Source of the DNA: Pontiellaceae bacterium B1224
GTDB taxonomy: Bacteria; Verrucomicrobiota; Kiritimatiellia; Kiritimatiellales; Pontiellaceae
Length of the DNA: 64,000 bases
NCBI GenBank assembly: GCA_029432815.1
Contig: JAROBA010000029.1
Coordinates: 1-64,000 of the forward strand
Reading direction: 5' to 3'
The position numbers were made by a program, and so were the translations under genes. The notes beneath the pieces were generated by a model. The model made no database searches. It was not told where the DNA came from and saw only the letters and a list, made by a program, of their open reading frames with translations. Of the stretch, positions 7,601 to 27,985 are shown one piece after another (within the stretch, counting starts at the first letter, position 1; every line of letters starts with the position of its first letter).

Positions 7601-10600
7601 AATCAGGAAGCGGTATTCCCCGTTCTGCAGGGCCGTTTCTCCATCATGGTCGGCCACTACGACGGACCAGGTGCCCGTCCCCGGATTGGGAACGGTGAAA
7701 ACCGACTCGCTGTAGTGGTTATAGGAATAGCCGGAGTAGAGGCCGTAAGCCGGACCGTAAGGCAGGTTGCCGTCTTTGCGCAGATAGAAGCGAGGATCAC
7801 CAACGGCAATATCCATCAACCGCAGTTCGATGGCACCGGTGGAGTTGGTGACATTGAAGCGGTAGAGATTATCGGCCTCACCCGCCTCGTAAAGATTGGT
7901 CACTGAAAGACTGCCACCCATGGGAATATTTCCAAGGTCTGGAACCGTTTGTTCGCCCAGGCTGTGCAGAGCGAAGCTTGACGAGCCGCTTCCGCTCCGG
8001 TTGTTGACCGGGTTATCCCCGAGGCTGACCACCATCAGATAATAGGTACCGCCCGGAATGGTCGTGGCATCGTTTTCAGGCAGCAGGATATAGTGTTCGT
8101 TGTCCGGTTTGTCCAAACGCACCATGGAGTTAAAGCTGTAGCCGGGCGAATTATTACCATCCTGTCCCTGGCTCCAGGTGGGCACATGCGCCTCCCGGAT
8201 GTATAGCGAAGATTCGCCCTCTATGTTTTCGAGTGCAACCTTCCAGTTGGCCATCCCCTCCGGCACATCGACTGCAAAATACTTAACGTCTCTAGCGGGA
8301 AGATTGCTGACCACAGTGCTGCTGTTGAAATCGACCGACAGCGGACTGTATGTCATACCGGTGCCGATGCCGCTGCTGACGAAACTGAAGTTGCCGGTAA
8401 CGGTGGTCGAATTGTTGTAGAAACCAATATAGTAGGTTCCGGGTTCCAGTGGAGCGCCCATACCCATGGAGAGCAGATACTTCGGGTAGGTAACCGATCC
8501 ATCGGAAGAATAGGTGCGTTGCGACCAATCGCCGTTGGAGGTTCCCCACTGAAAACCGCTGGGCCAGGTGGTATAGGACCAGGGGTAGTACCACCCCGGG
8601 ACGCCCGATGTGGAAGGAAGCTCATCGCGCCGGATATACATGGTGGGCCGGGTTCCGCTCCACTCCGAAGTCCGTAGCTCCCAGCCGACGACATCCTGTC
8701 CCCCGACTTGTTCCGGAACTTCGATCGTATAGTATTTCCATGTTGAAGGAGGCAGCGCTACACCGGACTCACCACCGCCGTCAAAGACAACATCAGTCGT
8801 ACCGGAGAGGTTGATGTTCAATGTATAGCTCCCCTCTTCAATCGAAGCGGCGGATCTTGAGTCATTGACCATCAAAGACCAGGTACCGGCTTCAGGTTCT
8901 GTGATGTTGATTATTGAAAGGTCTGTATCATCATACACGTATCCGGAGTAGACACCGTAGTTTGCTCCATAGGGGAAATTCGTATCGAGACGCAGGCTCA
9001 TTTCGGGACTGCCGACGCGGTCATCGAGCCGGATCTGCATGTTCTGTACGCCTGCGGGCACGGTGAATGAGTAGCGTCGAATCTCGCCCTTTCCATAGCT
9101 GCCCGTTTGTGTTGTCGTGCCGGGACTGTTCAGGATTCCAATATCGATGACATCGGCTTCACCCCAACTGTGCAGAATGGCGGCGGATGTGCCGGTTCCA
9201 ATGGTATTGCCGGAGGGTTGCTGCCCGTCGGAAACGACCATCAGGTAATAGTCCCCGGCCGGAATGTTGATTTCCCCATTTTCGGGAAGGAGAGTGAAGT
9301 GCTCGCCCCCTCCGATTTTCAGGCGGGTCATACTGCTGAAAGAATAGCCCGGCGAGGTGGTATCGCCCGAGCCAGCCTGCCAGGTCGGCACACGTGCTTC
9401 GCGAATGTAAAGCTGTGTTTCACCTTCTGTGTTTTCCAGTTCGACCTGCCAGGACGGTGTATTGGAAGGCACGGTGACTTTAAAATATTCCACCGCGCGG
9501 GCGGCAAGGTTGGTGATGAGTGCGAGACCGCCATCGAAGGCGATCGTCTGCGGTTCATAGGTCATGCCCATGCCAATGGCGCTACTGGCAAAACTGAAAG
9601 TTCCGGTTACGGTCTGGGAACTGTTGTAGAATCCGACATAGTAACTGCCGGGCTCAAGCGGAGCGCCCATTCCCATGGAAAGGAGGGTTTGTGGATAGGC
9701 CTGGCCATCGGGGTCGTAAGTGTAGCTGCTCCAGTCGTTATACTGCGTACCCCACTGCTGTCCGCTCGGCCAGGTGGTATAGGTCCAGGGATAGTACCAA
9801 CCCGAAACGCCGTACGGTGCCGGCAAAAGGTCGCGGCGGATATACATGGTCGGGCGTGCATTGATCCACTCCGTCATCCGCAGTTCCCAGCCGAGCACAT
9901 CCTGTTCGTTGGTTTGCACGGGTATATTGACGTGGTAATAAATCCACTCTTCCGGCGGAAGGATAACGTCTGCATCGCCGCCTCCGTCGAAAATGAAGTC
10001 TGTGTAGTTCAGTGCATGCACTTCCAGCGAATAAGCACCCGATGCCGGATTTCCGGCCTGCCCGACCACCACCGACCAGGTTCCTGTCGACGGACTGGCG
10101 TGCGTCGTGATATGCGTATCAGAAAATTCGGAAGTAGTTCCGGAATACAATCCGTAGCCCGGACCACTCGGGAATGTCCCATCACGTCTCAGATAGTATG
10201 TCGGGGTACCCACGGTGTCTTCGAGGCGCACCTCGATGGCCAATACATCCGGTCCCACATCGAACTGGAACAGATCGGTTTCTCCAGATACGAAAGAGCC
10301 GGAATCAGTCAACATGCCCCCATGGTTAATGGTACCCAAAGAAGTGATCGGCGCTTCGCCGAGACTATGCAGAATGGCGCTGCTGGTTCCGGTTCCAATG
10401 GTGTTTCCGGAGGGCCCTTGCCCCTCACTGACGACCATCATGAAATAGGATCCTGCGGGAATCGTTGCCTGTCCCAGTTCTGGCAGCAGCATGAATCGTT
10501 CATCACCGCTTTTCACCAGGCGGGTCATTCTGGAGAAATTCTGACCGGGCGAGATGGTGTCGCCGGAACCCATCTGCCAGGTAGGCACCAATCCTTCACG

Positions 10601-13600
10601 GATATAGAGTTGGGATTCACCCACGGTGTTTTCGAGTCGGATACTCCATGAGGGGCTGTTGGATGGCACGTTGACCTGAAAATATGCGACCGCACGCGCG
10701 GATAGATTCGTAATAACGGCACTGCCACCGTTGAATGCAATTTCCGGAACGTCGTAGTTCATATTTGATCCGATGGCACTGCTGACAAAACTGTAGCTTC
10801 CGGTGACGGTCGATGAGCTGTTGTAGAACGCGACATAATAGCTGCCAGGCTGTAGCGGCGCGCCCATGGCCATGGAGAGCAGCGTTTGCGGATAGGCTTG
10901 TCCATCAGGATCGTAGGTATAGCCTGTCCAGTCATTGTACTGTGTTCCCCACTGACGTCCGCTTGGCCAGCTTGCAGAGGTCCAGGGGTAATACCAGTAC
11001 GGAACGCCGGACGTTGCCGGAAGCTGGTCGCGGCGGATATACATGGCGGGACGCTCGTCTTCCCACTCCGTCATCCGAAGTTCCCATCCGATGACGTCCT
11101 GACCATTGGTCTGGGCAGGGATGGTGACGCGGTAAAAGTCATAGCTGTTCGGTTCAATCTGAACGGTTAAATTCGTGTAGCCATCAACAGGAAATACGAT
11201 GGGATCATGCGAACCGCTATCCAGAATAAAGGGGCCGATCGGGCCATCTGGATAATATACGCCCACGTACCAGATATCTGCTTCGTGGTCTGGATCCTGC
11301 AGGAATCCCAGCATGCTGGACTGGTCGTTGTAGGAAGTTTGACGGATGGTGGACGTTTCGTTCTGCCGGTAGTTCCAGCGGCCGGGCACATAGTTGCGGC
11401 GGATCGCGATTTCGGTGCCGGGAATATGGTCTTTCAACTGGAGAAGCCACCCCAGCTGGCCGAGCTGCTGGTCAATATCCGAAACCTTGAAGTAGCTCCA
11501 TCCGACATGATCAGGCACGTCGTTGGTGGTGCTGCTGATGAAGTCGATATCCGTCAGAATCGGCTCGCGGTTACGGAGATTGAATTCAAACGAATCATCT
11601 CCGTAGACGGTCACGTAGAACGTTCCGTCCGAAAGCGTGGTCGGCACCAGAGTGGTGCAGTCGTTGATGCTGGAACTGCTGTTTTCTGAAAAGGCATCAT
11701 TATTGAGGGGGTTCGGAACCTGACCAAGCCGCACAGCAACATCCGGATTGGTTCCGCTGTTGGGGGTCACGGTTACTTCCCAGGCAATCTGTTGGGGCGG
11801 AACCGGAATGCGATAGGTCTTAAAGAGGAAGCCGGACTGAGACTGGCCGGAGAGTGTTTCGTTGAAGTTTCCATTTGTTATTTCCTGCTGGCGCGAGTCG
11901 AACCGAAAGGTTTCGTTGGGTGTTCCCGGAACACCGACATAGTAGGAAGTGGCACTTCCTGGCACCAGATACGGGGGCACAAAGAGCCATTGACCGGTAC
12001 GCGTATAGTCATAGTAGCCCGCGTTCGAAGGATGAGGAGCATAGCTTGTCTGGACATAAAACTGTTTATCGAGGGTAGCGCTTCCGGAGCCGTTCTGCAG
12101 CCAGATGCGCCAGGCCTCGGCTTCGGATGGGATGATCGTTTTAAAGTATCGGATGGTTTCCGGCGGGATGGTGGCGACAAGGCCGCGCTCGTCGCCGCCC
12201 GCTGCGGGAAGTGTGCCGAGATCACGGGCGTAGACATCGCCTGAATAGAGATTCCAGATCGCGTTATCATCGGCCGTGACCAGGAAATACCACTCTTGGC
12301 CAGCCCCCGTGGTCGGGGATAAATAACGCGTGAACCCGTCGTCCCCCAAACGGATGGAGCGGTCGCTATAGGCATGAGCCAAATTATTGGTATATGGAAG
12401 ACTGTTCTCCCTGATAAAGAGATCGGCATTCGTCACGCTGGTCAGATCCAAAGCAATGCGCCAGGCTGCGAGATCCGGCAACTCCGTGATAAACCGGTAG
12501 AAGTAGGCTCCTCCATAGGAGTCGGTTTGCGGGTATATCTCCGAACCGCGGTCGGCGGTTCCCGGATCCCAATCCATTTCGGTGAGGAAGATATCCCCGG
12601 CAAACAGGCTCCACTCGGCTCCCTCTTCGGCGTCGACCAACAAGTACCACGTGTCCCCTGCAGTCAGGGGTTGCAGAATGGTATCACTGAGCAGGCTTTC
12701 AGCCAGATATGTGTAGGAATTCGTGGTCACATCGACATTCTGCTTCAGGTAAAGATCCGCCTCGCCACCGTCAACCATCAGTACTGAGCGCCAAAGCCCG
12801 AGCGATCCGGATTGTGTGGTGATTTCAAACAGGTAACTTCCTTCTGCCGTAATCGGATTGTCAAAAACCGTTGTTCCAAGCTGGGCTGTTCCGGGATCCC
12901 ACGCCAGACTTTCCACATGAAGATCGCCGGCAAAAATATTCCAATCCGCGTTATCTTCCATCTCCACCAGAATATACCAGGTTTCTCCGGATTGGAGGGG
13001 TTGTGTGATGGCATCGCTGGCGTTGCTATCGGACTTGAGCGTATAAGAATTGGTAGAGACATTCACATTCTTCTTCATGTAGAGATCGGCTTCTCCGCTT
13101 TCCACCCGGAGTACCGTTCGCCAATGGCCCCACGATCCGGCGGTGGTCTCTGTATCGATCTTAAACAGATAGCTTCCTGCCTCGGTAAATGTATTGGTGA
13201 ACCCCAGCGTCCCCATTTGTTCTGCTCCCGGATCCCATGAAAGATTCACAACATGAAGATCTCCAGCAAATAGACTCCATTGCGTATTTGCATCCGCCTC
13301 CACCAGAATGTACCAGGTTTGCCCGGCCGAAAATGATTGGGTGATCGTGTCATGACCGGGGTCTTCGGATTTTAAAGTATAAGAGCTGTCAGACACATTA
13401 ACGCTCTGCTTCATGTAAAGATCCGCCTCTCCGCTTTCCACCCGTAGCACCGTGCGCCACAGATTGTATGCACCGGCCGGTGTGGTTATTTTATAAAGAT
13501 AACTGCCTGGCTCCGTGATGCTGTTGGTCAATACCTCGGTTCCCAACCGTTCGTTCCCCGGGTCCCATGTCAGATTTTGGACATGAAGGTCACCGGCAAA

Positions 13601-13990
13601 CAGATTCCAGGTGGAATTGGCTTCGGACTCAACGAGGACGTACCAGGTTTCTCCAGCTGTAAGCGGCTGAATGATGGTGTCGTGTCCGGGGTTTTCGGAT
13701 TTTTCCATAAAGTTGCTGGTGGAAATCATGGCATTGGTGCTGATATAGAGATTTGCTTCTCCGCTCGTGACGTTTAGAACCGTTCGCCAGAAGCCAACAT
13801 TGTTGGCTGTGTTCGTTGTGGTTATTGAGAAAAGATAACTGCCCGCGTTTGCGTCGGTGTTAGAGTAGATCTCGGTACCGGACTGTGAGATGCCTTGGTC
13901 CCAAATTAGATTGGTTTGCGCCAGCACTGAATGGCCGGTGAACAGCATAATAAGCTGCACGAATATGACATAAGAAATTAACGTCTTCAT
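4649..13990 (-). CDS. Giant secreted PPC-repeat surface protein
   Basis: About 3113 residues. ATG at 13990 has GGGAGG nearby and gives a signal peptide starting MKTLISYVIFVQL; a start at 14065 would place 25 odd residues before it. The N-terminal part (DNA about 12.2-13.9 kb) has five or more repeats of about 95 residues carrying GDLHV, WDPG and SGEADLY, resembling bacterial pre-peptidase C-terminal (PPC) domains. Next are three large repeats of about 400 residues (7.6-11.1 kb), each with WYYPW, GFYNSS and IREA blocks. Two fibronectin-III-like domains flank a BACON-like domain (5.3-6.05 kb). Two copies of a C-terminal module follow, separated by a calcium-type loop with GTDPTNPLSH. It is probably displayed on the cell surface; its ligand is unknown. 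It interrupts the cbb3 gene cluster. Confidence 0.9.
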   Translation of the reverse strand: MKTLISYVIFVQLIMLFTGHSVLAQTNLIWDQGISQSGTEIYSNTDANAGSYLFSITTTNTANNVGFWRTVLNVTSGEANLYISTNAMISTSNFMEKSENPGHDTIIQPLTAGETWYVLVESEANSTWNLFAGDLHVQNLTWDPGNERLGTEVLTNSITEPGSYLYKITTPAGAYNLWRTVLRVESGEADLYMKQSVNVSDSSYTLKSEDPGHDTITQSFSAGQTWYILVEADANTQWSLFAGDLHVVNLSWDPGAEQMGTLGFTNTFTEAGSYLFKIDTETTAGSWGHWRTVLRVESGEADLYMKKNVNVSTNSYTLKSDSNASDAITQPLQSGETWYILVEMEDNADWNIFAGDLHVESLAWDPGTAQLGTTVFDNPITAEGSYLFEITTQSGSLGLWRSVLMVDGGEADLYLKQNVDVTTNSYTYLAESLLSDTILQPLTAGDTWYLLVDAEEGAEWSLFAGDIFLTEMDWDPGTADRGSEIYPQTDSYGGAYFYRFITELPDLAAWRIALDLTSVTNADLFIRENSLPYTNNLAHAYSDRSIRLGDDGFTRYLSPTTGAGQEWYFLVTADDNAIWNLYSGDVYARDLGTLPAAGGDERGLVATIPPETIRYFKTIIPSEAEAWRIWLQNGSGSATLDKQFYVQTSYAPHPSNAGYYDYTRTGQWLFVPPYLVPGSATSYYVGVPGTPNETFRFDSRQQEITNGNFNETLSGQSQSGFLFKTYRIPVPPQQIAWEVTVTPNSGTNPDVAVRLGQVPNPLNNDAFSENSSSSINDCTTLVPTTLSDGTFYVTVYGDDSFEFNLRNREPILTDIDFISSTTNDVPDHVGWSYFKVSDIDQQLGQLGWLLQLKDHIPGTEIAIRRNYVPGRWNYRQNETSTIRQTSYNDQSSMLGFLQDPDHEADIWYVGVYYPDGPIGPFILDSGSHDPIVFPVDGYTNLTVQIEPNSYDFYRVTIPAQTNGQDVIGWELRMTEWEDERPAMYIRRDQLPATSGVPYWYYPWTSASWPSGRQWGTQYNDWTGYTYDPDGQAYPQTLLSMAMGAPLQPGSYYVAFYNSSSTVTGSYSFVSSAIGSNMNYDVPEIAFNGGSAVITNLSARAVAYFQVNVPSNSPSWSIRLENTVGESQLYIREGLVPTWQMGSGDTISPGQNFSRMTRLVKSGDERFMLLPELGQATIPAGSYFMMVVSEGQGPSGNTIGTGTSSAILHSLGEAPITSLGTINHGGMLTDSGSFVSGETDLFQFDVGPDVLAIEVRLEDTVGTPTYYLRRDGTFPSGPGYGLYSGTTSEFSDTHITTHASPSTGTWSVVVGQAGNPASGAYSLEVHALNYTDFIFDGGGDADVILPPEEWIYYHVNIPVQTNEQDVLGWELRMTEWINARPTMYIRRDLLPAPYGVSGWYYPWTYTTWPSGQQWGTQYNDWSSYTYDPDGQAYPQTLLSMGMGAPLEPGSYYVGFYNSSQTVTGTFSFASSAIGMGMTYEPQTIAFDGGLALITNLAARAVEYFKVTVPSNTPSWQVELENTEGETQLYIREARVPTWQAGSGDTTSPGYSFSSMTRLKIGGGEHFTLLPENGEINIPAGDYYLMVVSDGQQPSGNTIGTGTSAAILHSWGEADVIDIGILNSPGTTTQTGSYGKGEIRRYSFTVPAGVQNMQIRLDDRVGSPEMSLRLDTNFPYGANYGVYSGYVYDDTDLSIINITEPEAGTWSLMVNDSRSAASIEEGSYTLNINLSGTTDVVFDGGGESGVALPPSTWKYYTIEVPEQVGGQDVVGWELRTSEWSGTRPTMYIRRDELPSTSGVPGWYYPWSYTTWPSGFQWGTSNGDWSQRTYSSDGSVTYPKYLLSMGMGAPLEPGTYYIGFYNNSTTVTGNFSFVSSGIGTGMTYSPLSVDFNSSTVVSNLPARDVKYFAVDVPEGMANWKVALENIEGESSLYIREAHVPTWSQGQDGNNSPGYSFNSMVRLDKPDNEHYILLPENDATTIPGGTYYLMVVSLGDNPVNNRSGSGSSSFALHSLGEQTVPDLGNIPMGGSLSVTNLYEAGEADNLYRFNVTNSTGAIELRLMDIAVGDPRFYLRKDGNLPYGPAYGLYSGYSYNHYSESVFTVPNPGTGTWSVVVADHDGETALQNGEYRFLITHKVPAELNFDALLNTNGNSNMSGGLLADNQRDYYRVDVPAMIDGEPIVGWYLTTTTSQGAAQVRVRKDLPPDDAGGGITQSPFSSPAAVVVPPLLTPGTWYVEVKGGGVTSYTLTSSAIWMEREWTMPAMGEAISTPGLDIPLFGDSGVDPAGDPLPIDQGIDLENGYYHFYSVTVPENNAGLLRTQLEAISGNPNLYIRVGNAPTLDYYYYNYQVQYDHRLDSNANTEYGNWVPHDGRYADRLEAGTWYIMVKADGDSNARYRLKLSGGNVYAGGNVQSLMLNDSGYTVQLLAEGDWRHYRVEVPTNAPVNWNITYSQESGNVDLYLRDTVPPGNSSTVADNFIRDWNKDQKNTGNPRPTYPDTGTHTLNVPPLRPGHVYYLGFLARSDASFSISSATSGGTIPSYEKVDFETGFISTNIPAGTEVTYQVEVPPDAVRWIHSTTNTSALNVYLEQGTLPSKTTSDHRYWFNGNGSDNRYLLRQNDQWPWRPNQTYYFTVVNPGGTSEPFSLVMNGSRAPEIPQNLSATDGTRADDVLVSWSSITGVGNYEVWRNTVDDPSSADHIAVGHNSSYYYDTTAEPGQLYYYWASVAGKTNTAWFSDSDSGWRPGSGTISPAMSAFSSLGGSGTIEVTAPAGTLWTAAESLNWITIDSGLTGTNNGTVAYSVSAYGNTVARTGTVTVASQTFTVIQQPLGVPVNVRATDGDYTDRTEITWDPLAGATTYYIYRNHTNTISGASYRGNVSSNIYSDLSGEENRTYFYFVRSRGDGGYGGYSAPDTGHRGNAGVTPEWMNQYFPGGYSGELRIENWNDSPAGYVIHWTPLAGCIYGVLWAESLADPFATLADGIVFPQGSYTDTVHAVEETGFYRLTVLCSEGDGYPGDDADSDGDGYTNYEEFVAGTDPTNPLSHPGISIFGHMSPGGYVLNWVSVSGQLYGILWTDDLLNPFVPLTNGIPYPIESYTDTVHTVEDTGFYRLEFESE

Positions 13991-14152
13991 CGTACCCTCC
14001 CAAGGTGTCGGCCCCTGCCCGAGAGCCGTTGCACTCCTCTTACACCCGCAACGCAACCCGTTCAAGGAATAAATTTTCGATAAAAAAATTTCGATGACAC
14101 GCTCTGTTTAAAACAGAACTAAAACCGGAGAGAGAAGGTCTTTTAGCAATTA

Positions 14153-14896
14153 TTAAGCAGAAGGAGGGTCGATCAAGTGGAAGAGCGTATTGCCCTGCCC
14201 GAGCTCGGTGGTGCAGGCATCCGCGCAGAGATTGCAGTTGGTGCAATCGGGTGTTTTGCTTTCAAAACGCGGGCGCAGGATCATCGGGCAGATTTCATCG
14301 CACCTCCGACAGTTCGTGCAGGTCTTTTCCTGATTCGCAAACTTCATGGTCCGTGTGCCGTCCGACTGAAGCAGCATTTGTATCAAGGCATAGGGGCAGC
14401 CTTTTTTACAGAAGTGTTCCTGGTAATGCACAAACAGGCCGAGGAAACCGAGGAAGAGGGCTGAGAAAATTCCAATGATTGGAAGATGGCCCGAGGCCAT
14501 TAAGCGGACTTGATTATCCAATGGTTGGAAGAAAGAGAGAATGACCTGCGTCAGCAGGAATGAGAACAGGATCGACCATAGCCATACTTTGAAGGGGCGT
14601 GACGCGGATTTGCGGGCTTTCGGGCTGTTCACTTTTTCAAGGAACATATGCATTGGGCAGAGATGCGAACAGAAGAGCCGTCCTTTTTTCATGCCAATCG
14701 CCACCACGAACAGCAAGAGGCCAACGATTGTGAACATCGGATAGAACATGGTGGACAGCCCGAAGTCGGCACCAAAAACACGCAGACTTCCGTTCTCCAG
14801 ATCAAAACAAAAAAAACGCAGGGGAATGCTCAGCAGAACAGCAATGCTGATCCCCTGAATCACTCTCCGGCGCTTCGAATACATCGACATGCCCAT
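14153..14896 (-). CDS. ccoG: CcoG/NapH-like polyferredoxin membrane protein
   Basis: A 247-residue membrane protein with four or five helices, two CxxxCP motifs (CSHLCPMHMF and CKKGCPYALI) and a C-terminal pair of [4Fe-4S] ferredoxin motifs (CTNCRRCDEICP and CTNCNLCADAC). This is the arrangement of CcoG/FixG and NapH/RdxA proteins, which reduce copper or pass electrons during cbb3 maturation. It is shorter than proteobacterial CcoG, which has an added C-terminal domain of about 200 residues. It lies directly after the oxidase subunit genes. Three in-frame ATGs occur in the first five codons, so the exact start is uncertain. An internal palindrome copy (14470-14484) encodes part of LPIIGIF. 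Confidence 0.87.
   Translation of the reverse strand: MGMSMYSKRRRVIQGISIAVLLSIPLRFFCFDLENGSLRVFGADFGLSTMFYPMFTIVGLLLFVVAIGMKKGRLFCSHLCPMHMFLEKVNSPKARKSASRPFKVWLWSILFSFLLTQVILSFFQPLDNQVRLMASGHLPIIGIFSALFLGFLGLFVHYQEHFCKKGCPYALIQMLLQSDGTRTMKFANQEKTCTNCRRCDEICPMILRPRFESKTPDCTNCNLCADACTTELGQGNTLFHLIDPPSA
14470..14484. repeat. Dispersed palindrome TTCCAATGATTGGAA
   Basis: A perfect-arm copy of the window-wide element inside the ccoG-like gene. A second, one-mismatch copy follows at 14516-14530 in the same gene. Confidence 0.8.
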
Positions 14897-14912: not shown

Positions 14913-15053
14913 TTACCACTGCAGGAACAGATAGACGATGCAGACGATCGTCAATACAATCTCAATTGCAATGTTGAACTTCCCGACGTCGGCATGTCCC
15001 TGCTTAATTTCAGGCGTCGTTTCGAATTCGTACTCTTTATTATTTTCAGACAT
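14913..15053 (-). CDS. 46-residue single-helix membrane protein, possible CcoQ-like subunit
   Basis: A short gene of 46 codons. ATG at 15053 is preceded by GGGAGG and the stop is TAA at 14913-14915. The first half is hydrophilic (MSENNKEYEFETTPEIKQGH); the second half is one hydrophobic helix ending in YLFLQW. It sits between ccoO (17 bases upstream) and ccoG (16 bases downstream), exactly where a small cbb3 subunit (CcoQ or equivalent) would be expected. There is no sequence signature to prove CcoQ identity. The good ribosome-binding site and the tight packing argue for a real gene. Confidence 0.75.
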   Translation of the reverse strand: MSENNKEYEFETTPEIKQGHADVGKFNIAIEIVLTIVCIVYLFLQW

Positions 15054-15070: not shown

Positions 15071-15655
15071 TTATTTTTCGTAGTCGTTCAGTGGTTGGCC
15101 TTCAGCATTAACGCGCCAGTTTTTATTACGTCCAAGTGTCTGGATGTAGGCGGTTAAATCTTTGATCTCTTCATCGGTCAGGTAGTCGAACGAAGGCATG
15201 ATGGATACTTTTTCGTAGATCCCTTTGCGGTTCGGGAATTTTTCACCCATATTGCGCGGATCCTTGAAATGCGCCCAGTGCCATTCGGAGGAATATTTTC
15301 CGCCCACACGTGCCAGATCGGGCCCGGTACGTTTAGTTCCGAGAAAGTTATAGCGGTCGTTCACATATTCCCAGGACGAAGAAACCGGAGCATTCACCAG
15401 GCGCCAACCGTAGCGGCGTTGATCGGATTCAAGATCGCGAATCTGCTGCGTATGGCAATAGACACATCCCTCGCTCTTATAGATTGCGATACCGCGCTTT
15501 TCCTGCTCGGTATATTCGTGAACGGTATGCTCAGTCGTCCACATTTCCGGGTTAACCATCGGCGGCACAACGGTGGTCAGTACCGCTCCGACAGCGAACA
15601 GGAGGAATGCACCGGTGGCGGTCCAAAGTAAGCTTTTTTCTACATCAATTTTCAT
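15071..15655 (-). CDS. ccoO: cbb3 oxidase subunit II (CcoO), monoheme c
   Basis: A 194-residue subunit with one N-terminal membrane anchor (about 8-30) and one c-type heme motif, GCVYCHTQQIR, near residue 60. A methionine-rich segment, YEKVSIMPSFDYL, probably supplies the axial Met. The TGPDLARVGGKYS and HFKDPR motifs are classic CcoO. It passes electrons from the multiheme subunit to CcoN. It begins 12 bases after the ccoN stop, consistent with translational coupling. The length matches the family. Confidence 0.95.
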   Translation of the reverse strand: MKIDVEKSLLWTATGAFLLFAVGAVLTTVVPPMVNPEMWTTEHTVHEYTEQEKRGIAIYKSEGCVYCHTQQIRDLESDQRRYGWRLVNAPVSSSWEYVNDRYNFLGTKRTGPDLARVGGKYSSEWHWAHFKDPRNMGEKFPNRKGIYEKVSIMPSFDYLTDEEIKDLTAYIQTLGRNKNWRVNAEGQPLNDYEK

Positions 15656-15667
15656 GATTAAATTCCC

Positions 15668-17035
15668 CTACTCAGCAACAACGGCTTCGGCCTCATCTTC
15701 TTCGCGGTATTTCCCGAAGAAGGTCTGCATAATATTATAAAAGAACAGGAAGTAAGCCCCGAAGATGAATGCCCCCGAGAAGAAACGCATCCAATGCGCA
15801 TGCTTGAGCGCTTCCAATGATTGGACAAAAGTGATTTCCGGATTCAGCCAGGCAAAGCCCTGAATAACTCCGCCGATCCAGAGCACAGCAAAGAACGGGA
15901 CGCTCGCCAGCGTCATGATCCAGAAATGCAGATCGCCGAGCTTTTCGGAATAGAGCTTACGACCGGCCAGTTTCGGAGCAACATAGTACACACCCGCCAT
16001 GGCGTAATAGGAGAAGGCTCCGAACAAAGCCATGTGCGCATGCCCTACCACCCAGTCGGTCTTACTGGTAATTTCATTCACCGAACGGATCGCCTGGAAA
16101 GGTCCCTGCAGGCAGGTGAAAATATAATAGACCGTACCCATCATCAGCAGCTTCGGAATCGGTCCGTTCATCCGTGTCCCGCGCGGAGCCGTCGCAAAGG
16201 TTCCGAAGAAGTTCGTGATTACCGCCATCACCGGAATGATCAGGCTGAATGAAAAGATGATGGAAACCGTCTGCAGCCAGTGCGGGCTCGGACCGTGAAT
16301 CATGTGGTGAGCGCCGGTCCAGACATAGACAAAGGAAATCACCCAGAAACCGATCATACTGAGCTTATGTGAATAGATCGGCGTATTGAGCTGTTTCGGA
16401 ATCAGGTAGTAGGCAATGGCCACACCGAGCGGGGTGAAAATGAGCCCCACCGCGTTGTGCACATAGAACCAGATCAGGTTGGCCTGGTTGGTTCCATCCA
16501 CCATCGGCATCTGGCTGAGCATGTTACCCGTGATATATACAAAGGTGGTCCAGATGACCGCTCCCAGCGTATACCAGACGGTCACGTAAAGATATTTCAC
16601 CTTGCGGATGGCCACCGTGCCGACCACGTTGATAAAGAACATGACCCAGCAGACTGCGACAAGATAATCGAACGGGGAAGGGATTTCGCCATATTCCACA
16701 TTCTTAACATGTCCGGTGGCGATACCAATTAAACCGCCGATCATCGTCAGGTTATAAAGAATGCCCATGGCAACTCCGAGCTTTTCAGAGAAGAGCTTTG
16801 TATGGAGAATGCGCGGCAGAATCCAGAACAGGATACCCATATTGGCCTGGAGCAACCAGCCGAACAGGTTAATGTTGGTGTGCAGCATACGTAGGCGCGG
16901 CATGGACAGATATTCAATGTCCCCGACCGTGGGCACCACAAATTTCAGCGCCGTAAGAATCCCCATCGTGAGCGCCAGCCCGAAGAAGGCGCACGCTGAG
17001 ATGATCATCATTTTTGCAGCAGTATCTTGTTTCAT
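15668..17035 (-). CDS. ccoN: cbb3 oxidase catalytic subunit I (CcoN)
   Basis: A 455-residue heme-copper oxidase subunit I with about twelve membrane helices. Visible metal ligands are the low-spin heme histidine in RMLHTNINLFGW, the second heme ligand pair near VVGHAHMALFG, and the copper B histidines including GAHHMIHG. The C-type (cbb3) assignment rests on these motifs and on CcoO and CcoS as neighbours. Its ATG overlaps the stop of the multiheme cytochrome gene (TAATG), so the two are translationally coupled. A one-mismatch palindrome copy at 15812-15826 encodes part of VQSLEAL near the C-terminus. Confidence 0.95.
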   Translation of the reverse strand: MKQDTAAKMMIISACAFFGLALTMGILTALKFVVPTVGDIEYLSMPRLRMLHTNINLFGWLLQANMGILFWILPRILHTKLFSEKLGVAMGILYNLTMIGGLIGIATGHVKNVEYGEIPSPFDYLVAVCWVMFFINVVGTVAIRKVKYLYVTVWYTLGAVIWTTFVYITGNMLSQMPMVDGTNQANLIWFYVHNAVGLIFTPLGVAIAYYLIPKQLNTPIYSHKLSMIGFWVISFVYVWTGAHHMIHGPSPHWLQTVSIIFSFSLIIPVMAVITNFFGTFATAPRGTRMNGPIPKLLMMGTVYYIFTCLQGPFQAIRSVNEITSKTDWVVGHAHMALFGAFSYYAMAGVYYVAPKLAGRKLYSEKLGDLHFWIMTLASVPFFAVLWIGGVIQGFAWLNPEITFVQSLEALKHAHWMRFFSGAFIFGAYFLFFYNIMQTFFGKYREEDEAEAVVAE

Positions 17036-18795
17036 TATTTTGCTTCCTCAGTGGTGTTCATTCGGATCCAGGCAATGATATCCAGAATGGTCTGATCGCT
17101 CAGATGGTCATGGGCCGGCATTGGCGTTCCGGCAACGCCGAGCAGGATCGACTCGTACAAACGTTCGTCCGTCACAGCAGCCTGGCTGATGAACTCTTTA
17201 TTGATCAGGTTACGCGGCAGCGGGTGAACCAGATCGTAGGCATTCGGCCCTTTTCCGTTAGCCAGCTTACCGTGGCAGGAGGTACAGAATTTCTGGAAGG
17301 CGACTTGTCCGTCTTCTGGATTGCCCTCTTCAATCACAATACCCTTACCTTTGTAGTCCATGCGCTCCGGGTCTCCAATCATTGGAAGTTCCACTTCCAT
17401 ACGGGTGAAGGACTGATCTTCGCTCAGACTCTTTCCTTTAATGAACTCAACCAGCGTTGCCGCTTGTTTTTCGGTGAGCACATTCTTCCAGGCCGGCATA
17501 GCCGTTCCCGACACGCCGTTAAGAATGGAATTCTGGAACCGCTCGTCGTACGACGCCACAAACTGATACTTGCTCAGATCGCGCGGCAGCGGATCGAGCA
17601 TGGCCGACACAATGCCGTCGCCCTTGAGATCCGGACCATGACAGGAAACGCAATAGGTGTCGTAGAGTTTCTGTCCTTCTGCAGAGGAGCCCAGTTTATA
17701 ACTGAACGTATTCAGGAACATAACGAGGCTATCCAGTTCGGCTTCATTGTAGTCCTTGAACGTCGGCATAATGGAATCCGGCGAATGCACGCGCGCATTA
17801 ACAATGTGATCCTTCACAAATTCCGGACCGCGGTTGCGCATGGTCCAGGTCAGCTCAGGTCCGATGTGCCCACCGGACAATTCTCCGCCATCCGTGCGGA
17901 ACGCATGACAGTTCACACAACCGCCCTTGGCAATCGACCCTTCAAACTGAACGCCCGCAAACATGGCGCGTCCGGCCGCTACACTTGGTTCACTGATGCG
18001 AAGCACATCCGATGTCGGCTTAATATAACCGATCGGAGCGGTCGATTCAGAACGCAGACGATTTTTCTGCTGCCCTTTGAGATAGGTAGCCAACGCGATG
18101 ACAGGCTCATCATCATGCACCCAGTCGAATTCAGGCATTTTCGAATTTTCGTCGTTTGCTTTTGGATGAACAATCGATTCCACCAGATAGTCAAACTTGA
18201 ATTTTCCACCAGCATCGGTCAGCTCAGGTGCCTGCGACGAGGACGAAATTCCCGCAATTGTATGACAGCCCCAGCACGCTTTTTCGAGGAAGAGTTCGCG
18301 GCCCTGTTCATAGAGTTCAGCGCCAGCCAGATGACCGCTTTCCATGGCATGGCAACGCACGCAGCTCGCCTGTGCCATTGGGCCGACGAGCATGGGTTTG
18401 ATCCATCCGTGAAACTCACCGTGCGCATCATGCATTTCAACGGCCCGGCCATTTCCGTCATGACAGACGACACAGCCGATATCATTAAAGTTGTGGGGAT
18501 CCTCTTCAAGCCCCGGCACAATCGGCGGATGGGTTGCCAATGGCAGCTGGAAATCCATCGCTTCCGGGTTTGAAACACCCACATGGCAGGATTGACAGCG
18601 GTCAATGATGGCTCCTGCCGGAGTTGGCACATTGACCTGCTTTATTTCCGCACCGGGAAACTCAGCACCGAGCTCTGCATAATATTCTTTTTGATATTTT
18701 ACAAAATCCTGATCGGTTGCCTTCTTCATCGACATCGCGAAAAATACAAATCCAGCAAAAGCGAGAATGAGGAGTGTACGATAGTCCTTAATCAT
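17035..18795 (-). CDS. Seven-heme cytochrome c, apparent c1/CcoP hybrid
   Basis: 586 residues from the ATG at 18795 (MIKDYRTLLILAF); a start at 18837 would add 14 residues that overlap cytochrome b. An N-terminal membrane anchor is followed by seven CxxCH motifs: CQSCH (67-71), CVVCH, CVRCH, CWGCH, CVNCH, CVSCH and CTSCH. The first four lie in a tetraheme-like region; the last three are in separate class I cytochrome c domains, and the final two resemble the tandem domains of CcoP. It sits exactly between cytochrome b and ccoN, with a one-base gap and a one-base overlap. It probably replaces both cytochrome c1 and CcoP, wiring the bc complex directly to the oxidase. That role is inferred from position. 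Confidence 0.9.
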   Translation of the reverse strand: MIKDYRTLLILAFAGFVFFAMSMKKATDQDFVKYQKEYYAELGAEFPGAEIKQVNVPTPAGAIIDRCQSCHVGVSNPEAMDFQLPLATHPPIVPGLEEDPHNFNDIGCVVCHDGNGRAVEMHDAHGEFHGWIKPMLVGPMAQASCVRCHAMESGHLAGAELYEQGRELFLEKACWGCHTIAGISSSSQAPELTDAGGKFKFDYLVESIVHPKANDENSKMPEFDWVHDDEPVIALATYLKGQQKNRLRSESTAPIGYIKPTSDVLRISEPSVAAGRAMFAGVQFEGSIAKGGCVNCHAFRTDGGELSGGHIGPELTWTMRNRGPEFVKDHIVNARVHSPDSIMPTFKDYNEAELDSLVMFLNTFSYKLGSSAEGQKLYDTYCVSCHGPDLKGDGIVSAMLDPLPRDLSKYQFVASYDERFQNSILNGVSGTAMPAWKNVLTEKQAATLVEFIKGKSLSEDQSFTRMEVELPMIGDPERMDYKGKGIVIEEGNPEDGQVAFQKFCTSCHGKLANGKGPNAYDLVHPLPRNLINKEFISQAAVTDERLYESILLGVAGTPMPAHDHLSDQTILDIIAWIRMNTTEEAK

Positions 18796-18796
18796 T

Positions 18797-20137
18797 TTAG
18801 TGCCCTCCCCCAACGGTTTCGACCCACGGATAAACAATGGCCCAGTTTTCTCCTCGGAAATAAACCCCGATGATTATCAGCGCGAGCATGAAGAGGTACA
18901 TGCCGATAAACAGGGCATTTTCAAGATTGCGCTCTCTGGCAAACCAGACGCCGGGAATATTTTTCCGGTAGGTCTTCGTGAATGTTTCCAAAAAGATTTC
19001 TATATAAGGAAGGAACATCACACCGCCGGCCATGATGCCGGGAATTACAATGCCGCCAATAAAGCCGTGATAGGAAACGAGCTCCTGCAATCCCAGGAAG
19101 TACCACGGTGCTTTCGACGGATTTGTCGGATGGTTCGGATCGGCCGGACCTTCCAGCGGGGCATCGAACAGAACGGAAATTAAACTGAGGAATGCCACAA
19201 CACCAACCAGTACGATCAGTTCGCGAACAATCAGCTTCGGCCAGGCAAACATCATCTGGTCGGTTTCTTCATTAACCTTGGGCTCATTACCCTTCACGAT
19301 TTCAACCAGCTTATAGCTGCGAGCAGATTTGAATACAGAGTTGTTTTTAACCTCGCCGAATTCTTCATCCGGGATCTGTTTTTCTTTGCTGGTGTCGGCC
19401 GGACGCGCCAGCCCGCCATCCTTGCGGATGCGGAAGAAGTGAACCGCGATCAGGAAGCCCATCACAGCCGGCAATACCGCCACGTGCAGGACATAGAACC
19501 GAATCAGAGCCTCGGACCCCACATCAGAGTCGCCGAGCAGAATGCCGCGAATCAGCGCGCCGCCTGGAGCGATCTTCGCGATTTCCGTTCCCACCTTAAC
19601 ACCCCAGAATGCCAGCTGGTCCCAGGGAAGCAGATAGCCGGTATAAGAAAGGAATACGGTCAGCAGACCGAGGATACAGCCGATGACCCAGTTGAATTCG
19701 CGCCCGCCACGATGCGCGCCGGCGAGATAAACACGCAACATATGCAGTGCCACAAAGGCGACCATGCCGTGCGCCGCCCAGCGGTGCATGTTCCGGAGGA
19801 AACCGCCCCAGAATACATTACTGCGCAGGTTGAGCATGCGGCTGTAGGCGTCCGGCAGTCCATCAGGACCGATGGCGGTCGATGGAACATAATGGAACAT
19901 CAGCAAAATCCCGGTCACGGAAAGCAGCAGGAAGAGATAGAACGTAATCAGTCCCAGCCCCATCGTGGTCTTGAATTTGACCGAGCGCTTGTGAATTTTG
20001 ACCGGTTGAATATGAAGCAGCACATTGCTGAACATAATCTTGGACTTCGTCAGTCCGGTGTTATCCATACGATGCCGAAAGAACGAGTAATATAACCTGT
20101 TCCCGAAATCCTTGGCCTTTTCGATTAATTCATTCAT
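18797..20137 (-). CDS. Cytochrome b of a bc-type quinol oxidase complex
   Basis: A 446-residue, full-length fused cytochrome b. The N-terminal four-helix half carries paired heme histidines (HRWAAHGMVAFVALHMLR and RFYVLHVAVLP). A quinol-site segment, SKAPWYFLGLQELVSY, sits in the C-terminal subunit-IV-like half and replaces the usual PEWY. That APWY form is, from memory, common in menaquinol-using bc complexes. About eight membrane helices are present. It is immediately downstream of the Rieske gene and one base upstream of the multiheme cytochrome start. It would transfer electrons from menaquinol to the Rieske cluster and across the membrane. Confidence 0.95.
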   Translation of the reverse strand: MNELIEKAKDFGNRLYYSFFRHRMDNTGLTKSKIMFSNVLLHIQPVKIHKRSVKFKTTMGLGLITFYLFLLLSVTGILLMFHYVPSTAIGPDGLPDAYSRMLNLRSNVFWGGFLRNMHRWAAHGMVAFVALHMLRVYLAGAHRGGREFNWVIGCILGLLTVFLSYTGYLLPWDQLAFWGVKVGTEIAKIAPGGALIRGILLGDSDVGSEALIRFYVLHVAVLPAVMGFLIAVHFFRIRKDGGLARPADTSKEKQIPDEEFGEVKNNSVFKSARSYKLVEIVKGNEPKVNEETDQMMFAWPKLIVRELIVLVGVVAFLSLISVLFDAPLEGPADPNHPTNPSKAPWYFLGLQELVSYHGFIGGIVIPGIMAGGVMFLPYIEIFLETFTKTYRKNIPGVWFARERNLENALFIGMYLFMLALIIIGVYFRGENWAIVYPWVETVGGGH

Positions 20138-20167: not shown

Positions 20168-20641
20168 TTAGGCAACCGGGAAAAAAGTGCCTTCCGGCAA
20201 TGAGGTCGCGGTGTCGATTTCGACCTGTCCACCGGGGACCGTTTTGATTTCAAGCCACGGTAGCGTTTTGGGTGCAGGGCCGCCGACCACCAGCCCATCG
20301 GTATCGTATTGCGAACCATGGCACGGGCACTGAAACCCGGTTTCAACCCGGTTGACCGTGCAGCCAAGATGCGTACAAACCAGCGAAATAGCAGCAATTT
20401 CCGTTGCGGTCTGCCGGCGCAATACCACCTTCATGTCTTCGAAAATCAGTTCATCACCGACATCCGGGAGGTCGGCCACCGGCACCAGAAATTTCTGGGG
20501 TGTTCCATAGGAAACCACCGGGAACATATATTTAAACAGGGCTCCACCGGTTCCGGCTGCAGCAAGTCCCATCAAGCCGAAAGCCGATCCCATGGTGATC
20601 AGCTCGCGCCGGCTCTTACCTTCTTTTTTTTCTTTCGACAT
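20168..20641 (-). CDS. Rieske [2Fe-2S] protein of the bc complex
   Basis: 157 residues. The N-terminus holds a twin-arginine-type signal anchor ([20 protein letters not shown]). The cluster motifs CTHLGC (about 90) and CPCHGSQY (about 107-114) are intact, with the following GPAPKTLP loop. It is the electron acceptor from menaquinol and passes electrons to the multiheme cytochrome c. Its ATG overlaps the ccoS stop (TAATG), an unusual coupling of an oxidase assembly gene to a bc-complex subunit. Confidence 0.95.
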
Positions 20642-20820
20642 TATTTACTCCCTCCATCAACAGCACCGTTCGCGTGCTTTTCCTCTTCGCGGAAAATTAC
20701 ATACTTCGCTTCTTCAGGATCGTCAAATTGACCGTCCTTAACCGCCCACCGAAATAGTCCGAAAAAGATCAGGCCCAGCAGCGTTGTAGCTATTAAAAGG
20801 ATAATGGTCAGAATTAACAT
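20641..20820 (-). CDS. ccoS: cbb3 oxidase assembly protein CcoS
   Basis: A short gene of 59 codons. ATG is at 20820 and TAA at 20641-20643. One hydrophobic helix ([18 protein letters not shown]) leads into the CcoS signature [15 protein letters not shown]. CcoS is required for cofactor insertion into CcoN. It overlaps the Rieske start by one base and lies 10 bases after the stop of the large flavoprotein gene, so it is well inside the operon. The length matches the family. Confidence 0.9.
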
Positions 20821-20830
20821 GGGTTATCTC

Positions 20831-22618
20831 CTATGCGAAACAATCCTCAAACTCATTCACCGACATCTTGCACGCGCCGGTCGGACACTTCTGTGCACAC
20901 ATACCACAGCGAATGCACTTGAGCGGATCGAACAGCATGACCGATCCCTCCGCTTCAGCCACTTCCATGCTGCCGAATTCTTTTTCAGCCAGCATGACTA
21001 GATCGTTGCCACCATCTACGCGATCCACCGTTTTCATCGAAAGACAGTACGACGGACAGACATCCACGCAACCGCCGCAGAGAATACAGATGTCCCCTTC
21101 GAAGGTTGGGTGAATATGGCATTCCAGACAACGGCTGGACTGTTCCTTTGCATCAAAATCGGGGTATTCCACTGTCGTGTTGAATTCCGGCTCTTCCGCT
21201 GGCTTAACCGGCAGTTCTTCTCGCTCTTCGCGCTCTTCATCCACATACAGCGATTTTCTTCCATACTCAGGAAGATCGGTGAAGGTGATTTTACGCTTCA
21301 GCGATTTCGGTGCATCGCCGGTAATAAAGGAATGAATACCCTGGGCCGCCTTACTGCCCGAAGCCACGGCATCAATAAACAGTTTCGGACCGTGCGCAAT
21401 ATCGCCGCCCACAAACACATTCGGTTTGCTGGTCTGCAGCGTTTCTTCGTTCACCACTTTCACCCAGCCCTGAGGCGTCACTTCCACGCCCGAACCTTCC
21501 AGGAAGTCCAGATCAGAACCCTGCCCGACTGCAAAGAAGACCGCATCGCCTTCAATCAAACGGGTTTCTTCTTCGAGCTGCGGCGAAAACTTGCCGTCCT
21601 CATCAAAAACGCGGATTACTTTACTGACGATCAGCCCCTTGATTTTACCGTCTTCCACGACAATTTCGCGGGGGCCCCAGCCATCGTTGATCGTGACTCC
21701 TTCACGACGACCGCCTTCGCGCTCGTCGACAGAACCGGTCATTTCATTCAGGTGCTCGCGTTCCAGACAGGCCAGCTGAACATCGGGCGATCCGCAACGA
21801 AGCGCGGAACGTGCCACGTCGAACGCCACATCGCCGCCACCGATTACAATCGAACGGGTTGTGGAAAGGTCCCACTTTTCACGCAGATTGAAATCGAACA
21901 GGAAGGCGAGGCCAATGTATGCATCTTTATGATCGGCATTCGGAATCGGAATTTTTTTACCTTTGGCCAAACCCACCGCGATGTAAACGGCATCGTGTTT
22001 TTTCTCCAATTCCTTGAACGAAATATCGCTCCCGACGTCCACGCCGTTTTTCACTTCGATGTTATCGAACTGCTCGATTGAGGCCAGCTCGTCGGCCACC
22101 ACTTTACGCGAGAGTCGGTTGATCGGAACACCCTGTACCAGCTGGCCTCCGGATTTTTCCCAGCGCTCATATATCGTAACGGCATAGCCCAGTCGGGCGA
22201 GGTCGTGTGCAGCCGTATAGCCTGCACACCCGCCGCCAATGATGCCTACAGATTTCCCGTTCAGCTGAGGATCAACGGAACCCGGAGCGATGGAGAAGGT
22301 CAGCGGTTTCCTGAGATCACCCTTTTCAGGACCATGCTTGTCCGTAAGAAAACCTTTAATATTGCGAATAACAACGGCTTCATCCACATCTGAGCGGCGG
22401 CAACCTTTTTCGCAGGGCGCGCCGCAGACTTTTCCGCAAATGGATGCAAATGGGTTGGTGGCGCGGGAGATGGCATACGCCTCTTCATATTTCCCGGCAA
22501 CGGTCGCCATCAGATAGCCGCGCGCGTCCGTGCTTACAGGGCAGGAATTACGGCACTTCACCTCGGCTTCATAATACTCGTCCGTAGGTAGTTCTACCTG
22601 AATTTTTTCAAATGCCAT
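20831..22618 (-). CDS. GltD-like FAD/NAD(P) oxidoreductase with C-terminal ferredoxin
   Basis: 595 residues. An N-terminal Fe-S domain has cysteines in CRNSCPVSTDARGY and CGKVCGAPCEKGC, as in the glutamate synthase small subunit and dihydropyrimidine dehydrogenase. It is followed by an FAD Rossmann motif (GIIGGGCAGYTAAHDLARLG, about 125) and a second nucleotide motif (IVIGGGDVAFDVARS). The C-terminus adds two [4Fe-4S] motifs (CILCGGCVDVCP and CIRCGMCAQKCPTGAC) not found in GltD. It is the first gene of the bc-cbb3 operon, 10 bases before ccoS. No glutamate synthase large subunit lies nearby, so it probably moves electrons between NAD(P)H, ferredoxin and the respiratory chain. The exact reaction is unknown. 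Confidence 0.85.
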   Translation of the reverse strand: MAFEKIQVELPTDEYYEAEVKCRNSCPVSTDARGYLMATVAGKYEEAYAISRATNPFASICGKVCGAPCEKGCRRSDVDEAVVIRNIKGFLTDKHGPEKGDLRKPLTFSIAPGSVDPQLNGKSVGIIGGGCAGYTAAHDLARLGYAVTIYERWEKSGGQLVQGVPINRLSRKVVADELASIEQFDNIEVKNGVDVGSDISFKELEKKHDAVYIAVGLAKGKKIPIPNADHKDAYIGLAFLFDFNLREKWDLSTTRSIVIGGGDVAFDVARSALRCGSPDVQLACLEREHLNEMTGSVDEREGGRREGVTINDGWGPREIVVEDGKIKGLIVSKVIRVFDEDGKFSPQLEEETRLIEGDAVFFAVGQGSDLDFLEGSGVEVTPQGWVKVVNEETLQTSKPNVFVGGDIAHGPKLFIDAVASGSKAAQGIHSFITGDAPKSLKRKITFTDLPEYGRKSLYVDEEREEREELPVKPAEEPEFNTTVEYPDFDAKEQSSRCLECHIHPTFEGDICILCGGCVDVCPSYCLSMKTVDRVDGGNDLVMLAEKEFGSMEVAEAEGSVMLFDPLKCIRCGMCAQKCPTGACKMSVNEFEDCFA

Positions 22619-23868: not shown

Positions 23869-24912
23869 TTATTCTTCGCAGGTCGGCAGCTTCATGCAGT
23901 GGAGCTGTCCGTCGGAGAGCAGGTAGAGCCGGGAGGCATCGGTGTTCAGGACGGCCTGATCGACCTTTAAGTCGATGGCGCGGGGATCGAAAACAGGATA
24001 GAGGTCGGACTTAAGGGCCATCTGAAGACGGCCGCCTTCCATCGGGAAAATGACGCGAGGGTCTTTGCTGATAAATTCCGGATGACCCAGCCCCCTGCGC
24101 TTCCAGTGATTCTGAAATGTTGAAGCATCACCGGTTTCGGCATCATAGAGCTGGAAATCCTGAAACCACAGTTTACACCAGTATTTGCGTTCGCTTGACG
24201 AAGGATCATTGAAAGGAATGATGGCCAAGGGCGAGCTGCTGGTATGACTGATCCAATTTGTGGTCATGACAAGTGTATCAGGATTGATCGAATAAGACTC
24301 AAACATTTTGGGGCCGCCGCGCGTCAGCAGCAATCGGGGAGTTACCCTGCTGGAATCCATCTGCACATCGGTGAAGTGCGCCTGTTTTTCGGTGTGGTAG
24401 GTGAGCGAGACAATATTCGACCAACTGCCGGTTTCGTATACCCGCATATCCGACCGCCAATCACCACCGTAGTAGAGGAATTGGCCTGAATCATCAAAAT
24501 TGATCCAGAAGGAACCCAAACGCTTGCTGTTTTTAAACTCAAGCTCCTGTTCACCGGTTGCAAGATTGAATATCCGTCCGAAGCTATTACAAACCATGGC
24601 GAGATAGCGCCCGCGCGGATCGTATGCAATTGAATTATGGGGAACACTCTTTAACGGCTTCGCAAGGATGGATCCATCGGAATGCAGCTCGGCAAGATAT
24701 ACATCGTTACTCGTGGAGAGTACTGTCTTCTGAGGAAAATCGGCGCGGCTGAGCGTTTTCAGCTCCCGATCAAAGGGAACCGCGCACACCGAATAGTTTT
24801 CCATATCGTAGAAATGCAGACGCCCATCCGCCTCCAGCAGAATAACCTGTCGATCATCCTGCAGGTTGCAATCGATGGGATCATCGATCAACAACGCTAC
24901 GCACCAGTTCAA
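23869..24912 (-). pseudogene. C-terminal beta-propeller part of the kinase, out of frame
   Basis: A 347-residue frame with repeated strand patterns (DGRLHFYDMENYS, DDSGQFLYYGGDWR, DGQLHCMKLPTC) of a WD40-like propeller. It has only a weak TTG as start at 24912 and overlaps the end of the kinase frame by 32 bases. Deleting one G from the five-G tract (complement of 24914-24918) joins the two frames, giving the smooth reading ADSIRGLNWCVALL. It is therefore most likely the continuation of the kinase, separated by a frameshift, a sequencing error or a programmed slip. An independent coupled protein is less likely. Confidence 0.7.
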
Positions 24913-27454: not shown

Positions 27455-27529
27455 CAATTAAGGTTAAAGAAAGAAAGCCTGAAATAAACGACTAATCGTA
27501 TCTGAATAATTGCTTTCACGACTCTCTCC

Positions 27530-27985
27530 CTAAACCCGCCTCACTCGCAGAGAAACAACGCCGAGCTCAAGTTCATCACCATCGCACAGATCTTCGTAGT
27601 CGATGTTTTTCCCATTCAGACGGGTTCCGTTCTTCGAACCCGCATCACATAATCGTATCAGATTACCGACCGATTCAAGGCGACAATGCAGCCGGGAGAT
27701 CCCTTCGAAGTCGAGCCGGCAATCGGCCTTTTCGCCCCGCCCGATCGTCACCGGCAGACTGCACATACAAACGCGCAGCATCTCTTCGCCATCCCGCTCT
27801 AAAACAACGGTACCCTTACGATCGAAATAATCGCCCCGTGAATGAATCGACAGCCGCATCTTTTCAAGGCTCCACTCGCGCGTCGCCGCAAAAACATCCT
27901 CAGCATCGGAGGCCGCCTGCAAACGCTCGATAATCTGATTATCAGACAGTCTGCCCATTTGTTCGTCATCCGTTTGAACTTTCAT
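27530..27985 (-). CDS. FHA-domain phosphothreonine-binding protein
   Basis: 151 residues. An N-terminal helical part is followed by an FHA domain (about 60-150) with the conserved GRGEKADC, SRLHC and SKNGTRLNG motifs that contact phosphothreonine. It probably binds autophosphorylated kinase encoded just downstream, or a phosphorylated form of the sigma factor. Its ATG overlaps the sigma factor stop by four bases (ATGA), indicating coupled translation. It is soluble, with no signal peptide. Confidence 0.9.
   Translation of the reverse strand: MKVQTDDEQMGRLSDNQIIERLQAASDAEDVFAATREWSLEKMRLSIHSRGDYFDRKGTVVLERDGEEMLRVCMCSLPVTIGRGEKADCRLDFEGISRLHCRLESVGNLIRLCDAGSKNGTRLNGKNIDYEDLCDGDELELGVVSLRVRRV

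Follow-up and report, generated by a model that had tools for sequence, protein, structure and literature searches.

In Rhodobacter capsulatus, an engineered fusion of cytochrome c1 to CcoP yields a functional bc1-cbb3 supercomplex, and the addition of a further cytochrome domain allowed quinol:O2 (QH2:O2) activity with no carrier supplied (PMC7876108). Native proteobacterial bc1-cbb3 supercomplexes, both components of which are held in PDB entries 8smr and 8snh, contain a true cytochrome c1, CcoP and a membrane-bound or soluble cytochrome. In the actinobacterial bcc-aa3 complex (QcrCAB-aa3), a c subunit with an extra heme makes a carrier-free III2IV2 unit (PMC8361435). The anammox complexes encoded by Kuste4569-4574 and Kustd1480-1485 (PMC12954380) have a Rieske protein, a b6-like cytochrome b with subunit IV and, where cytochrome f would be expected, a multiheme cytochrome c; the same cluster encodes an Nfn-like NAD(P) oxidoreductase. 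Here we describe a nine-gene block on the minus strand of a 64,000-nucleotide stretch of DNA (the window; contig JAROBA010000029.1, positions 1 to 64,000) from the 5.4-Mb draft genome of Pontiellaceae bacterium B1224, which belongs to the Pontiella lineage (Kiritimatiellia). The block probably encodes one hard-wired menaquinol-to-O2 unit, in which a Rieske/cytochrome b6-type complex is joined to a cbb3 oxidase by a heptaheme cytochrome c, here called c7.

The c7 gene (window 18795-17035, minus strand) encodes a membrane-anchored cytochrome of 586 amino acids (aa) with seven CxxCH sites. The initial annotation, made from the sequence alone, had described a seven-heme cytochrome in a bc-cbb3 operon, one base from each of its neighbors. 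The seven motifs, the Rieske protein, cytochrome b, CcoN and CcoO are all present, and c7 does start 1 base pair (bp) past the cytochrome b stop codon (TAA-A-ATG), but its own stop codon shares 1 bp with the ATG of ccoN (TAATG). The NAD(P) oxidoreductase gene at the head of the operon had been overlooked. The genes, in the order of their transcription, are the following.

20831..22618, minus strand: NAD(P) oxidoreductase, 595 aa, heading the unit (Pfam; NCBIfam PRK12771; best PDB hits 9bov/9bp5 and NfnA)
20641..20820, minus strand: ccoS, cbb3 assembly protein, 59 aa, ATG at 20820 (PF03597, 45.6 bits; TIGR00847, 32.3 bits, cut-off 28.35)
20168..20641, minus strand: Rieske iron-sulfur protein, 157 aa, with a Ser/Tyr pair in its motif (PF00355; best PDB match 9rk4)
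18797..20137, minus strand: cytochrome b, b6 and subunit IV fused, 446 aa (ExtP/ExtQ-like models; H118, H132, H218, H233)
17035..18795, minus strand: c7, heptaheme cytochrome c, 586 aa (Pfam, orthologue alignment, CxxCH motifs)
15668..17035, minus strand: ccoN, 455 aa, subunit I of a C-family heme-copper oxidase (PF00115; 218 bits to Pseudomonas stutzeri CcoN, 3mk7)
15071..15655, minus strand: ccoO, monoheme subunit, 194 aa (PF02433, 118 bits; 3mk7_B)
14913..15053, minus strand: 46-aa protein with one C-terminal transmembrane (TM) helix, tail-anchored (no Pfam or NCBIfam family match)
14153..14896, minus strand: CcoG/NapH-like polyferredoxin, 247 aa, probable assembly factor (TIGR02745, 46.7 bits, below the cut-off of 316.7)

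The CxxCH motifs of c7 are at residues 67, 108, 145, 174, 293, 382 and 504, and all seven are invariant in 12 orthologues. The nearest relative found, Pontiellaceae bacterium B12219, has a c7 that is 90% identical; the motifs and ligands are also kept in two proteins of another family that are 49% identical. Pfam recognizes an N-terminal stretch of the C7/MtrC-like kind and four others of the class I cytochrome type, so that the layout is a TM helix, three hemes and four class I domains, and not a four-heme N-terminus with three class I domains as originally proposed. The TM helix spans residues 5-25 and the triheme part about 60-155, followed by class I domains at about 160-245, 270-365, 370-455 and 490-582 (domains 4, 5, 6 and 7, respectively). 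Four His residues outside the CxxCH motifs are invariant in the triheme part (89, 101, 125 and 129), and each class I domain has one invariant Met (220, 343, 433 and 559). The hemes of the triheme part are likely to be bis-His ligated and those of the class I domains His/Met ligated.

The same annotation had viewed c7 as a merger of cytochrome c1 and CcoP. The cytochrome c1 profile PF02167 gives no match to c7, the FixP_N membrane anchor (PF14715) is absent by Pfam, and the score with the CcoP equivalog TIGR00782 is 68.9 bits, below the cut-off of 179.95. The CcoP-like traits of c7 are its two class I domains 6 and 7 and the abutment of its gene on ccoN. Judged by its position and domain content, c7 replaces both cytochrome c1/f and CcoP, yet it is a member of neither family. 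The merger is thus true of roles rather than of families, since c7 is homologous to neither cytochrome c1 nor full CcoP.

When the domains of c7 were compared one by one, domains 4 and 5 were closest to class I domains of multiheme cytochromes from bc operons without an oxidase. Domain 6 was closest to a class I domain that an alternative complex III (ACIII)-cbb3 operon of the same class carries as a fusion with CcoO (45 bits, a modest score for a short domain); this CcoO-fused domain is its best match in both of the families that have c7 and in a split form of the protein. Domain 7 matches both kinds less specifically, and its best match is a small cytochrome. Of the last two domains, which had been called CcoP-like, domain 6 resembles an oxidase-linked c domain, and domain 7 does so less clearly. 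The split form occurs in G019, where a five-heme gene and a two-heme gene, overlapping by one base, lie between cytochrome b and ccoN; the same two-heme gene is found at a contig end in G015. The boundary between the split genes corresponds to the domain 5/6 junction of c7, and it is the diheme gene that adjoins ccoN. Both this boundary and the affinity of domain 6 in all three settings argue against an origin of c7 as a bc multiheme cytochrome lengthened by duplication of class I repeats, with no merger with an oxidase subunit. Such an origin would fit the runs of class I repeats seen in ten-heme relatives and the comparable scores of domain 7 to repeats and to small cytochromes, but we consider it improbable.

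Within Pontiella, the lineages with split genes take a basal position, with modest support and their order unresolved. In the other family, the fused form (G320 and G322) aligns with Pontiella c7 across the 5/6 junction with no gaps, so the fusion looks old. A recent fusion from split genes was considered and is unsupported, given the gapless junction between families and the basal position and unresolved order of the split lineages. Fission of an ancient c7 fusion is at least as likely as two repeated fusions.

The CcoN protein is divergent, scoring 278 bits with the TIGR00780 equivalog, for which the cut-off is 583. Its residues H52, H193, Y237, H243, H244, H332 and H334 were aligned to 3mk7 and are invariant among relatives. 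In the 3mk7 structure, these residues are the CuB and heme His ligands and the Tyr of helix VII; by this alignment, CcoN keeps the active-site residues of the C family (cbb3), that Tyr among them. In other Kiritimatiellia, the usual oxidase has a CcoN-CcoO fusion and a separate monoheme cytochrome, with no adjoining bc genes. The 46-aa protein is present after ccoO in nearly every intact operon. It resembles CcoQ and CcoH in size only and is possibly a small oxidase subunit. The CcoG/NapH-like gene adjoins the operon in Pontiella relatives.

The Rieske 2Fe-2S motif and the four b-heme His are both present, and the Qo motif of cytochrome b is APWY. The closest solved relative of the Rieske protein is 9rk4, the Kuste4569 protein of K. 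stuttgartiensis, and the motif of the Pontiella protein keeps the Ser/Tyr pair that is associated with high potential (PMC12954380). Unlike the anammox complexes, the Pontiella complex has b6 and subunit IV fused, three predicted C-terminal helices rather than five in the subunit IV part, no Cys where b6 would bind an n-side heme (cN) covalently, and a cbb3 oxidase with its seven-heme link attached. A His near the N-terminus of cytochrome b was considered as a possible extra heme ligand by analogy with the anammox proteins, but is uninformative, because an operon in which no flavoprotein was found conserves it too.

In the scheme that we propose, menaquinol (MKH2) would be oxidized at the Qo site. 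The first electron would pass from the Rieske protein to the triheme part of c7 and on through class I domains 4 and 5 and then 6 and 7; domain 7 would deliver it to CcoO, from which it would reach heme b of CcoN, the b3-CuB site and O2. The second electron would enter the b hemes and pass from them to menaquinone, to the NAD(P) oxidoreductase, or to both. In this way c7 would combine the roles of cytochrome c1/f as acceptor from the Rieske protein, of a mobile cytochrome c, and of CcoP as donor to CcoO. Menaquinones have been measured in cultured Pontiella (PMC7356697). A physical bc:cbb3 supercomplex, which the initial annotation had taken to be obligate, and this order of the hemes are inferred. 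Functionally, the engineered R. capsulatus fusion joins bc to cbb3 as proposed here for c7. The native proteobacterial supercomplexes likewise hold a bc complex with cbb3, but in Pontiella one seven-heme protein stands for all of their cytochrome c components, and the bc part is of the b6/menaquinol type. The actinobacterial complex differs in that diheme QcrC feeds an A-type oxidase, whereas c7 would feed the CcoO of a C-type oxidase. In ACIII-oxidase operons, a multiheme complex III substitute adjoins the oxidase, but unlike the Pontiella operon ACIII has no Rieske protein or cytochrome b. An example is L136:5331-15681 (G063), an ACIII-cbb3 operon in which the ACIII genes (ActB and an ActC-ActD fusion) and a pentaheme gene are beside CcoN and a fusion of CcoO to a class I c domain.

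The rest of the genome was searched for parts that could substitute for c7. No separate c1 or ccoP is present in the operon, as the initial annotation had stated, and none was found elsewhere in the searched genome. The best match to PF02167 there has an E value of 0.24 and lies elsewhere than c7, and no FixP_N (FixP-type CcoP) exceeds the cut-off in any of 28 genomes of the genus. The genome has a single cytochrome b by PF00033, with no second bc complex found, and one cbb3 subunit I. A second PF00115 gene was considered as another oxidase and rejected, as it is a quinol nitric oxide (NO) reductase. A quinol-type NO reductase is located beside an apparent Rrf2-type regulator and an apparent iron-cluster repair gene at L094:4611-6866 (G000 C117). 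Other class I cytochrome matches are to a sugar-dehydrogenase fusion, a large mosaic protein and a 126-aa protein among degradation genes; those remaining are weak or uncharacterized, in long open reading frames (ORFs). No clear gene for a soluble cytochrome c carrier was found in the searched genome. A plasmid search gave matches only to cbb3 subunit II and to diheme-cytochrome-like proteins.

The bc complex and the oxidase might instead be separate and merely co-transcribed, with c7 bound to the bc complex and donating to CcoO or other acceptors by transient contact, so that no obligate supercomplex exists. Related bc operons that lack an adjoining oxidase do carry similarly built cytochromes with six or ten hemes, and in the two split lineages the separate oxidase-side diheme protein has a signal-peptide-like N-terminus. 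The AlphaFold models of c7 are unusable, which also leaves room for this arrangement. However, there is no separate donor subunit for CcoO, domain 6 resembles an oxidase-linked domain, and both families have the fusion and the same tight gene order. We therefore regard transient contact as rather unlikely.

Several points do weigh against a hard-wired menaquinol-to-O2 unit. The domain assignments in c7 involve short domains and modest bit scores, and the AlphaFold models are of low confidence (predicted local distance difference test, pLDDT, 44 for c7 and 53 for its C-terminal half). The two lineages with separate five-heme and two-heme proteins indicate that the two halves need not be covalently linked. 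The genome also has a cytochrome bd, so that the bc:cbb3 unit is not the only route to O2. The cultured Pontiella, which are marine bacteria, are described as obligate anaerobes and reported to be intolerant of oxygen, and two of the three are oxidase-negative. It should be noted that the 2020 description of Pontiella lists 'ccoNOP' and leaves oxygen reduction open.

The NAD(P) oxidoreductase gene ends 10 bp upstream of ccoS, and the flavoprotein lies directly upstream of either ccoS or the Rieske gene in every intact operon examined. It has an N-terminal Fer4_20 iron-sulfur domain, an FAD/NAD(P) domain of the Nfn/GltD-like type and two C-terminal 4Fe-4S motifs; six divergent copies share 17 invariant Cys. 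Among solved structures, the best homologue is the NfnABC entry 9bov/9bp5, with NfnA also matched. Entry 9bov/9bp5 is also a structural homologue of the anammox protein Kuste4570 (PMC12954380), and 9bp5 is a nearest solved homologue of both flavoproteins. These homologies, with that of the Rieske protein, indicate that the operon combines an NAD(P)-oxidoreductase Rieske/cytochrome b complex of the anammox type with a cbb3 oxidase. A cassette of NAD(P) oxidoreductase, Rieske protein, cytochrome b and multiheme cytochrome c without an oxidase recurs in several families of the phylum, with a hexaheme cytochrome in L091, L193, L194 and L195 and a decaheme cytochrome in L089, L093 and L196. Two of the oxidase-free operons headed by the flavoprotein are from another family of the phylum.

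The unit is thus possibly coupled to NAD(P), and the direction of such coupling may be read in two ways. In one, the flavoprotein would run forwards: NAD(P)H would reduce menaquinone at the n-side, and bc:cbb3 would hand the electrons on to O2, so that the whole would act as an NAD(P)H:O2 oxidoreductase that removes oxygen. The flavoprotein is always first in the operon, and the hosts ferment and must dispose of NADH. Cultured Pontiella in oxygen gradients kept a larger reduced zone, a result that its authors call inconclusive. On the other hand, the anammox counterpart gene set has been argued to run in the opposite way on account of high Rieske potentials (PMC12954380). We consider this forward reaction a possibility, although not a favored one. 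In the other reading, the block would be a respirasome-like enzyme in which O2 reduction drives quinone bifurcation, and NAD(P)+ receives the low-potential electron of menaquinol by way of the attached flavoprotein. This would be an oxygen-powered version of the anammox scheme, with the high-potential Rieske protein wired through c7 to cbb3, and seems to us unlikely. The flavoprotein could also be a mere neighbor, an Nfn/GltD-like enzyme of another pathway that stands outside the complex. Its sequence is that of a soluble protein, and proteins of the GltD-like type are common. However, it is immediately upstream in every intact operon of the two families with the oxidase, it also heads at least seven bc operons without one, and the same pairing has been reported for two anammox complexes (PMC12954380). 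That it is a neighbor only is conceivable, if somewhat doubtful.

When the genomes of the genus were compared, c7, cytochrome b and the oxidase were found together in 20 of 28 and were jointly absent from the other 8. Gaps in a single part are confined to contig ends. The cytochrome b that was counted for G017 belongs to a second bc operon. Co-occurrence of c7 with the oxidase gives a Fisher p of about 3e-6 over the 28 genomes, uncorrected for shared ancestry; this all-or-none pattern suggests that the gene block is not due to chance. The c7 layout is kept in all intact copies, both in Pontiella and in the distant Kiritimatiellia family, with the two basal split lineages as the exceptions. Among 346 Kiritimatiellia genomes, the matching type of CcoN was found in Pontiella and in two genomes of one other family, and no further case was found in 388 genomes drawn evenly from the phylum, to which the genome-level search was confined. 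The nearest other CcoN genes (G436 and G554) have no bc genes adjoining within the stretch covered. Contig ends of metagenome-assembled genomes break some of the operons. In a single-contig genome (G024, L103:6290-9747), ccoN and cytochrome b are apparently frameshifted, through either assembly error or decay. The cultured Pontiella sulfatireligans F21 carries the operon (L011).

Two other features of the window lie outside the operon. A very long ORF of 3138 aa (4649-14065, minus strand) has many similar beta-rich repeats and is apparently secreted. A cluster at 24881-28614, also on the minus strand, has what resemble genes for an extracytoplasmic function (ECF) sigma factor, for an FHA protein and for a Ser/Thr kinase whose C-terminus is WD-like.

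If our interpretation is correct, c7 would be a natural equivalent of the engineered Rhodobacter c1-CcoP fusion, which was designed to keep bc1 and cbb3 together, and the operon would encode a III-IV unit that needs no carrier, found outside the actinobacteria and made of quite different components. It would also link a C-type oxidase with the Rieske/cytochrome b type of complex that includes an NAD(P) oxidoreductase, the purpose of which is unsettled in anammox bacteria. One of the anammox complexes has no proposed energy-yielding partner; the Pontiella operon itself offers a candidate for this role in O2 reduction. The operon would also provide a concrete enzyme with which to ask how bacteria classed as anaerobes deal with trace oxygen.

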